DNA of 64,000 nucleotides from Scatophagus argus. Taxonomy: Eukaryota > Chordata > Actinopteri > Scatophagidae. The translations under genes were made by a program, and so were the position numbers. The stretch is taken from positions 3,026,001 through 3,090,000 of the forward strand of contig NC_058499.1 in the NCBI RefSeq assembly GCF_020382885.2, read 5' to 3'. The notes beneath the pieces were generated by a model. That model worked only from the letters and a program-made list of their open reading frames with translations. It was not told the origin of the DNA and searched no databases. The first letter of the stretch is position 1; each line of letters begins with the position of its first letter. This document shows positions 36,101 through 39,100 of the stretch, piece by piece.

Positions 36101-39100
36101 AACTTCAGAGAGCAACAGGCCTTACCTCGAGATGACGCCATGGAGAACCTGACCCTGAGGAACCGCTACCTGGAGGAGAGACTCCACTCCTTAGAGAGCC
36201 AGATATCCAAAGAGCCTTCATCAAGGCCCTCTGTGAGTGATCAGCAACACGCACAACATGGTGACTGTCTGCTAATTCACATAGCAACATAAATACGTCC
36301 TGGAGAAAAGTGGTTATTTTTCAGTTAATACAAAATTTGTTTTTCCAATACCGTCATTTCCAGACTATAAGCCGCTACTTTTTTCCACACGCTTTGAACC
36401 CTGCGGCTTAAACAATAGATGTTGCTAATTTATGGGGTTTTTTTGTATTTGCCAATACATTTAGCCTCGTCACATCAGACCAATGAAATTACCGAACAGG
36501 TCATAGTGGACCAATGAAACTGTTTGAATTAAATTAAACAGGCATTTTGCACTTCAAAGTGGCATTGAAAGTGTGTGACAAAGTAATTCTGAGGCTGTTC
36601 AATTCCGACACTGAAGAAGACGGCTTTAGTGGTTTCAGTGCGCAGGAGGAAGATGAAGATAGCGTTCAATGACTTTTCTGGTAGGCTGCTGTTACTGTGT
36701 TACAGGCACTGTTTGGAAAAAAGCATTTATTTAATTTAATTCCTGTCAGCTTCTCAGATAAGACAATTTGCTGTTTTTCTGTGTTTTATATAGTTTTAAA
36801 GTTAATGTTTTAGATCTTCAACTGTTGGTCAGACAAAACAAGCAATTTGAAGATGAAAAACGTTTATCTCTTCTTTTATCTCTCCATTTCCCATTCTTTA
36901 CTCTTTTCCTCATGTGCCTCCTTCCTCTCTGGATTTAATCTGACTCATTACCTGTGAAGGGAGGACGCTCCTCACGTGCTTTGAGAGGGATTTCTCTCAC
37001 TTTTGACATTGAGGATGAACCATGCAAAGGGAATATGGCACCTCATCCTACAGAATATCACATGCACCTCGTTAGCCCTGAAGCTGTTGGAGATCCTGCT
37101 GACCAAAAGATGGAACCAGAGCAAATCCAGATAGATAGAAAAACTCAAACCAGCTTTGATGCGAAAGAGGATGTTTGCGCTGAGGTAGAGCGATTGAGTC
37201 CGAGTGTTGAAAACGCAGCAGATGAAATAAATGTGAACAGAGAAGATGATGCGAGAAAAGGTGACACAGAAGCTGATGTTTTAGAATGTTCACAAGATGT
37301 CACAGATGGTTCTCAAGTTCATGTTGAAGAACAGGAGGTACCACAGTCCATAAAAGGAAGTGACTGTGAGCCCGATGACCCAGCAGAAAGACCATCACAG
37401 TCTGTGCCAGCCATGGCTGCAGACGCTGGGCAAACGTGTGAAACAATGACTGAAGAGAATGTTGGTGAACTAGGTGATGGGAATATGGAAGGTGATTATG
37501 TGGGAATTGGAAAAAAGCCAGAAGACACTGAGGAGCAAATTGTTCTGAAAGATGAAGTGGTTGGGACTACAAAGGAGGCAACAGCGGAGGATAATCCAGA
37601 AAAGTCCTCCTCAGCAGAACCAGATGTGGACTCCATATTGAGCAAACCCCCAGAGAGGTGTATCAGTAGAACAAGGGATTATCGTGCACAAAAAAGAGAA
37701 GGCAGATCTCTTAGATATCTGAAGGTACTGCAGGCTTCTATAGTCTCCCAGCTGAAGTGGTAGTGCTGTGATAGCGTTGCGGTAGATGTGGCAGAGCAAA
37801 CAGGAGTAGTAAGTGGCTTGTTAGTGTGTTGGTGTTTCCCTCTGCATTGTCCGTTATGGACTAAAGGTTTCCACGGTTGTGCGTAAAGAGAGACGGTCGC
37901 ATTTATAAATGATCCCCTTAGAGCTTTTGCTTGTGAAGATGCAATGTTTTCCTCCACTGCAGTGGTACAACCCGTGGCTAATGTGGTGCCTTTGACTTTG
38001 CATAGACTTCAGGACGCGGCACTAGCACCCCCTCTCAGAGAGATCAGGATCTCCAAAAAGAAAATCTGAAGCTGGCCTCTGAGAACCTGGAGCTGCGCTT
38101 TCAGCTGGAGCAGAGCAACAAAGACTTACCGAGACTCAAGGTACACATCGGCTAAATGGTGAAGTGGTCGTTACGCTGTGTTACGATGACTGTCAGACAT
38201 GTTAAAGTTTTTTTTATTATCAGAATCAGAAAGACGTTATTGCCATTGTAAGTGAAGAGGTTTCACATTACTAGGAATTTGTCTTGGTGATTGGTGCATA
38301 CATAGAACGTAACAAGTAACTTATAATAGAAGAATAAAATAAAAATAAAATAAAATAAGGTAACACAAAATAAAATAAGATAAGTAAAATAAATATGTTT
38401 CTGGAGGTAGTCTAAAAGTGAGGTAGTGCAGGGTGGAGTATCGTGCAAGTTGGTGAAAAACTGCAAATGAACAGCAGGTGGATAATGACATGAGCAAAAA
38501 TTATGGGGAATATGTTTATGTACTTTCTTGCTAAGAGTTAGATGGGAACATGAATACCAGTCTCATGTCTGTACATGTGCAGTAAATATGACAGTGGAGT
38601 CAGGAGATGATTAGTTTATTAATAAAGTGTTTTTTTTTTCCCCAGGTGTTGGCAGGCTGTGATAAGCTACATGAAAGCTTCATATGTAGACATAAGAGTC
38701 TAGTCTTGGCCAGAAATGGAAAATATGAAAAGTCTGTCTATCAATGAGAGCTCGAGTCATTTCTTTTGACTGACAATATTTGTCTAAATTGATCATCTTT
38801 TTGCCTCAGCTCACTCAGCTTTGCCTAAGTCCTGGTTGATTTATGTAAGAGCAAATGTTCCTTTAGCTCATATTTCTTTTGGGTTTTTTTTCTCTTGTTA
38901 CAGAACCAAGTTGCGGACCTTAAAGAAATGTGCAGCGTGTTGAAAAAGGAAAAGGCAGAAATGGAGAAAAAGCTGGCCCATGTACGTGGGGTATGTCACC
39001 TAAAGTCACCCGAGTTCTCTCTGTACAACCGAGTTTTTCCCCAAAGTGATTAAACAAAGAAACTGAATCGGATGGCAGAAACTGCAGCTGTAATGTGTTC

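Follow-up and report, generated by a model that had tools for sequence, protein, structure and literature searches.

Inherited blindness is frequently due to mutations in CEP290, and the reason why photoreceptors are hit so hard is unsettled. A photoreceptor microexon of Cep290, termed exon 8 in the available part of a 2026 paper (PMC13175383), is traceable to fish and used in the zebrafish eye according to Matalkah et al. (2022; PMC9509328), whose accessible text also reports that no phenotype was detected when it was deleted in mouse. MSI1 promotes the inclusion of a Cep290 exon, and exons that are included more often in photoreceptors show a downstream enrichment of clusters of at least three UAG motifs spaced by 10-15 nt, as stated in excerpts of Murphy et al. 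(2016; PMC4991804), where PTBP motifs are found enriched upstream of differentially spliced exons in general. The Musashi site form found by eCLIP is BUAG. At the protein level, a study on the cooperation of Cep290 with Cep131-Cep162 at the basal body discusses, in the available part, a model of Cep290 being kept closed by its two termini, with the C terminus being microtubule-associated (PMC10914257). The basic domain of RPGR-ORF15 is described in a section of PMC13052805 as binding TTLL5 via F1140, W1141, L1145, Y1148 and L1149.

We analyzed a 64,000-nucleotide stretch of Scatophagus argus DNA (the window), taken from an assembly of 570.7 Mb in 48 contigs. An intron of its cep290 gene contains a 765-nt candidate exon, for which our favored reading, at a probability of roughly 45%, is a coding cassette whose inclusion is switched on in photoreceptors by Musashi proteins. 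Among the papers listed in literature searches, most of them aimed at CEP290 or photoreceptor exons, none deals with this exon, which is not proof of its absence in print.

Gene content of the window

Two genes were recognized through Pfam matches: cep290, plus strand (CEP209_CC5, E = 3.8e-19), and rlig1, minus strand (RLIG1, E = 3.1e-50). The minus strand also carries a gene that is presumably tmtc3-like. No RNA family was detected in the window at gathering score. Seven stop-free stretches reach at least 150 codons: three match Pfam families (reverse transcriptase, CEP290 and RLIG1), three are without a match at E ≤ 0.01, and the seventh, which holds the candidate exon, has no Pfam match. 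The reverse transcriptase match (RVT_1, E = 6.6e-14) is located in an open stretch at 15369-16079 inside cep290, which we regard as a retroelement piece. On the minus strand, 49891-50667 and 51422-51616 hold a long open stretch, rich in Ser/Thr and including a segment that resembles a membrane span, near a link-domain-like peptide, presumably of the CD44/LYVE1 type; the long stretch has no Pfam match. Judged by its open frames, a second coiled-coil-rich gene occupies 57100-61400 on the plus strand. A second cep290 in the genome was considered and rejected, as a 152-aa exon (28458-28913) matches only itself.

By size and peptide, we take a 21-nt exon encoding IKKLRKK to be the homologue of human CEP290 exon 8, and used it as an internal positive control. 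The original prediction had placed the candidate between exons 43 and 44; going by the human variant names c.6012-12T>A and c.6271-8T>G, we instead take its flanks to be human CEP290 exons 44 and 45, and the insertion point to correspond to approximately human residue 2045. The features discussed below are:

11591-11611, plus strand: exon 8, 21 nt, presumed from the human match, with gene model, translation and literature
36109-36232, plus strand: upstream cep290 exon, translation ending in KEPSSRPS, donor TCT/GTGAGT (5.4 bits)
36336-36739 (36336-36488 and 36567-36739), no strand assigned: dispersed repeat fragments in the upstream intron, from the search of the own genome by DNA
36860-36959, plus strand: pyrimidine-rich stretch with 20 YCU/UCY (PTB-type) motifs, ending in the acceptor AAG at 36957-36959 (3.9 bits)
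36960-37724, plus strand: candidate cassette exon of 765 nt encoding 255 aa, phase 0/0, from translation, open frame and periodicity
37725-37824, plus strand: the 100 nt that open the downstream intron, six UAG (Musashi-type sites) by motif count, donor AAG/GTACTG (3.9 bits)
38006-38140, plus strand: downstream cep290 exon, translation starting with TSGRG, acceptor 5.9 bits

Open frame and coding signal

The candidate at 36960-37724 translates into 255 residues with no stop. The nearest in-frame stops are a TAA at 36936-36938, 24 bases before the acceptor, and a TAG at 37761-37763, 36 bases past the donor; the full stop-free stretch in the intron thus spans 36939-37760 (274 codons). An AG precedes 36960 and a GT follows 37724, and the exon, in phase 0 on both sides, inserts in frame at SRPS^TSGRG. 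Length, phase and stop distances agree with the original prediction, which had also argued that such a frame is unlikely to occur by chance. Dinucleotide shuffles, simulated introns and the period-3 signal bear this out. The frame stays open in 0 of 5000 shuffles (mean 16.7 stops, minimum 6), and the longest open run in 60 simulated 64-kb intron-like sequences, with third-order composition and read on one strand, is 202 codons. The period-3 signal of the candidate is 14.3; in 500 equally long intron windows it does not exceed 7.2, and in 1000 plain shuffles it does not exceed 3.9. With no open shuffle and a periodicity above that of all intron windows, a chance open frame can be rejected.

The synonymous codon use of the candidate differs from that of the remaining cep290 and scores intron-like, at -0.26 bits per codon (other cep290 exons +0.15, introns -0.19). 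This synonymous-only score groups the candidate with introns because its third positions are AT-rich: GC3 is 0.33, where 33 anchored cep290 stretches average 0.61 and reach 0.39 at the lowest. The full codon score of -0.11 falls between those of introns (-0.57) and exons (0.55). The +1 frame holds stops, yet outscores the proposed frame on both codon scores. We treated cep290-like codon usage as a supportive rather than a defining property of a protein-coding exon, and the candidate lacks it. Overall, 36960-37724 is a real exon candidate and very likely coding, and it is likely used as a cassette in cep290, its use in RNA being a prediction.

Splice sites and exon boundaries

Splice sites were scored with vertebrate weight matrices across 45 cep290 exons. 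The acceptor had been described as good and the donor as strong, and neither description holds: the acceptor at 36960 scores 3.9 bits and is the fourth weakest of 45 (median 7.8), and the donor, likewise at 3.9 bits, is the 11th weakest (median 5.8). The acceptor is nevertheless the best-scoring of the 22 in-frame AG sites in the open stretch. Inside the exon, a rival donor at 37492 is stronger (8.3 bits), but out of frame.

A gene finder of simple design was run at six penalties, its training set being 33 anchored cep290 stretches without 36960-37724. Every run retains an exon with its 3' end at donor 37724, but uses acceptor 37054 (7.0 bits), and at the lowest penalty the region is split into 37054-37260 and 37357-37724. 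Of its 33 training anchors, the program finds 32 again at five penalties and 28 at the highest penalty, and it also produced seven exons that we judged to be spurious. The path shown at penalty 18 pairs acceptor 37054 with a donor at 36260, a combination that would disrupt the regular 36232/38006 frame, and we have therefore rejected this start and kept 36960 as the 5' edge. Given the preference of the gene finder, we place less confidence in the 5' edge than in the 3' edge.

Downstream of the candidate, an acceptor-like site (37963-38005, 9.0 bits) lies 43 nt ahead of the exon at 38006, whose own acceptor scores 5.9 bits. Used after a phase-0 exon, it would add ten residues followed by a stop.

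Musashi and PTB-type motifs around the candidate

As weak splice sites are common in regulated exons, we examined possible regulation. The first 100 nt past donor 37724 contain six UAG motifs (at +17, +37, +48, +59, +83 and +98), which ranks first among the 45 cep290 exons, a rank that is partly post hoc because UAGs were counted only once the sequence had been seen. The 100 nt upstream of 36960 contain 20 PTB-type motifs, again ranking first and followed by an exon with 13; these motifs overlap with the ordinary pyrimidine tract, and 0.08% of 100-nt plus-strand windows reach the same count. The candidate thus shows the upstream PTB-type enrichment described for differentially spliced exons in general. 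For exon 8, the counts are five UAG motifs (100 nt downstream) and 12 PTB-type motifs (upstream), and with cut-offs set to these values, only the candidate and exon 8 pass (2 of 45). Both cut-offs are reached by 83 of 31,100 random, overlapping 765-nt placements. Among the 1967 GT dinucleotides in 9800-42200, two are followed by at least six UAG in the next 100 bases, donor 37724 being one of them.

Stricter definitions reduce the distinction. Counting BUAG only, the candidate has four sites, exon 39389-39511 five, exon 24960-25190 four and exon 8 three, and 26 of the 1967 GT positions have at least four. A run of three UAGs with starts no more than 15 nt apart follows only the candidate and exon 13730-13852 among the 45 exons, the longest run at exon 8 being two. 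In the candidate, this run (+37, +48, +59) has starts 11 nt apart and gaps of 8 nt; the phrase "spaced by 10 to 15 nucleotides" in the available text of PMC4991804 can be read as referring to starts, which the candidate fits, or to gaps. At least six UAG motifs occurred in 83 of 5000 shuffles of the 281-nt downstream intron and in 2367 of 5000 when only the 100 nt were shuffled with their TA and AG steps kept, and the exon 8 count of five was reached in 423 of 3000 shuffles. Together with the +1-frame scores, the BUAG counts, the run lengths and the 100-nt shuffles make both the Musashi and the coding reading weaker. The UAG/PTB signature next to the candidate is suggestive, not proof. The earlier mention of retina as a tissue of use gains some independent support from the UAG-rich intron start and the PTB-type tract, both shared with exon 8, and this support shrinks as the motif definition is tightened. 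None of the observations speaks for or against testis, the other tissue mentioned.

We also noted that exon 39389-39511, which is presumably constitutive, carries five UAGs in the 100 nt downstream, all of them BUAG, and that no anchored stretch has a lower GC3 than this exon (0.39). It might also be regulated.

Composition and relatives of the predicted product

The product is acidic, as had been proposed (60 of 255 residues D/E, net charge -31, pI 4.37), with 29 K+R and no tryptophan. Residues 21-225 are acidic (pI 4.1), and the last 30 residues (226-255) are basic (pI 10.9). Its heptad periodicity is weak (2.19), with higher values in 17 of the 18 anchored CEP290 stretches of at least 50 residues, consistent with the earlier description as non-coiled; the proline content on the other hand is only mildly raised (17 of 255). 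Its mean hydropathy falls on the disordered side of the charge-hydropathy line. Going by composition, the cassette product may be a disordered acidic linker. The insertion point SRPS^TSGRG is itself a Ser/Pro/Gly linker by composition, and therefore the coiled-coil segments on either side need not be disturbed. Of the CEP290 isoform with a disordered loop that was originally envisaged, the cassette stands as the best reading and the linker is what composition suggests, and its splice sites are weak, not strong. A charged linker near the CEP290 C terminus could alter reach or autoinhibition, we infer.

Searches of Pfam and of PDB sequences with the 255 residues revealed no known domain at E up to 10, and a search of viral contigs for relatives returned three pattern matches, none of them confirmed. 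A protein search of the own 570.7-Mb genome gave no second copy (three of three candidates scored), and a DNA search, in which very common words were skipped, gave no second copy of the exon among the 40 scored of 283 candidates. This DNA search, with the whole interval 36233-38005 as query, yielded at least 43 matches besides the window itself; all those listed are located at query positions 104-507 and none in the exon. The dispersed repeats thus stop about 220 bases upstream of the candidate. Within the window, tblastn of the candidate gave no match, and three exact matches of 13-14 nt have E values of 0.15-0.6. We accordingly rejected a transposon or duplicated origin, there being no other exon copy by protein search or among the 40 scored of 283 DNA candidates.

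Discussion

Our preferred model envisions that the weak acceptor and donor would leave the candidate exon skipped in most cells, and that PTB-type binding to the long upstream pyrimidine tract may help to repress it. In photoreceptors, where Musashi levels are high, MSI1/MSI2 would bind the UAGs located just past the donor and bring about inclusion. The predicted product is CEP290 extended by 255 residues. These would form an acidic linker with a basic end, probably unstructured and placed at SRPS^TSGRG, where coiled-coil segments lie on either side near the C terminus. Such a linker would make the microtubule-side end of CEP290 longer or looser in the connecting cilium, and more charged.

A serious competitor is that the exon is genuine, but constitutive in this lineage or regulated elsewhere, for example in brain, testis or embryo, with the UAGs being incidental. 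All coding evidence holds without a regulatory reading, another cep290 exon taken as constitutive has five UAGs that are all BUAG, and weak donors are present elsewhere in the gene. The acceptor is, however, the fourth weakest of 45, the exon has phase 0 at either end, and it ranks top for both UAG and upstream PTB-type motifs, features that speak against this competitor. We consider it improbable that the stretch represents a relic of coding sequence or an open frame out of use, namely a former exon which has lost splicing and is still unbroken. Its AT-rich synonymous sites, codon scores below those of exons and weak splice sites would fit such an origin, but 274 stop-free codons and the strong periodicity argue against long-lasting neutrality, and phase-matched splice signals remain at both ends.

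The frame continues for 12 codons past the donor to the stop at 37761, and an alternative terminal exon or retained-intron product would yield a shortened CEP290. This is very unlikely, as 37725-38005 contains no AATAAA or ATTAAA and a single TATAAA only, and the donor at 37724 is phase-matched. A nested gene or an insertion from elsewhere, such as a transposon or retrocopy with chance splice sites, could be brought in line with dispersed repeats ending some 220 bases upstream; the lack of any other genomic match to the exon, as protein (3/3 scored) or as DNA (40 of 283 scored), or of a match in Pfam or PDB sequences, together with the flush phase-0 splice signals, renders it the most far-fetched of these explanations. 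A photoreceptor cassette under Musashi control would represent a second and far larger photoreceptor-type exon in cep290, which would imply that in some fish CEP290 itself is adapted to the connecting cilium. Such an exon would in addition offer a natural test of whether photoreceptor-specific exons matter, the known Cep290 microexon being dispensable in mice in the accessible account of PMC9509328.

Other described exons share some of these properties. The CEP290 LCA cryptic exon (c.2991+1655A>G) is likewise an extra exon within a CEP290 intron, but it is mutation-made, carries a stop and is located between exons 26 and 27, as outlined in the available part of PMC7917623, whereas our candidate is open and in frame. 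Like the exons of Ttc8 (exon 2A), Cc2d2a and Prom1, which excerpts of PMC4991804 describe as MSI1-promoted, the candidate belongs to a ciliary/outer-segment gene. At 765 nt, it differs from the photoreceptor exons of Ttc8, Cep290, Cc2d2a and Cacna2d4, which are at most 30 nt long in the text seen of PMC9509328. The arrangement of its product recalls RPGR-ORF15, a ciliary protein form in which a long acidic block is followed by a basic segment, and which derives from a retina-used part of an intron (PMC13052805 and PMC9897430, in part). This acidic-then-basic order is present in the candidate, with pI 4.1 followed by 10.9. RPGR-ORF15 is terminal, Glu-Gly repetitive and equipped with a basic domain of ~100 residues, as given in the same portion of PMC13052805, whereas the candidate is internal. 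The TTLL5-binding motif (FW...L..YL) is absent from its 255 residues, which contain no tryptophan and no match to a relaxed pattern; we have rejected membership in the RPGR-type TTLL5-binding module and, because this helix is missing, do not class the candidate with RPGR-ORF15. A tentative and rather unlikely extension of our model is that a fish lineage built a photoreceptor-only CEP290, in which a 255-residue acidic-then-basic linker under the Musashi switch of exon 8 would form a second, independently evolved acidic module of the connecting cilium alongside RPGR-ORF15, possibly tuning the reach or the closed/open state of the protein. Exon 8 has 21 nt, encodes a basic peptide, is flanked by good splice sites (8.3 and 10.8 bits) and has no close run of three UAGs, whereas the candidate is 765 nt long and acidic, with weak sites and predicted use in RNA. 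The candidate shares with exon 8 the same gene, the in-frame cassette arrangement, numerous UAGs where the downstream intron begins and an upstream region with many pyrimidine motifs.
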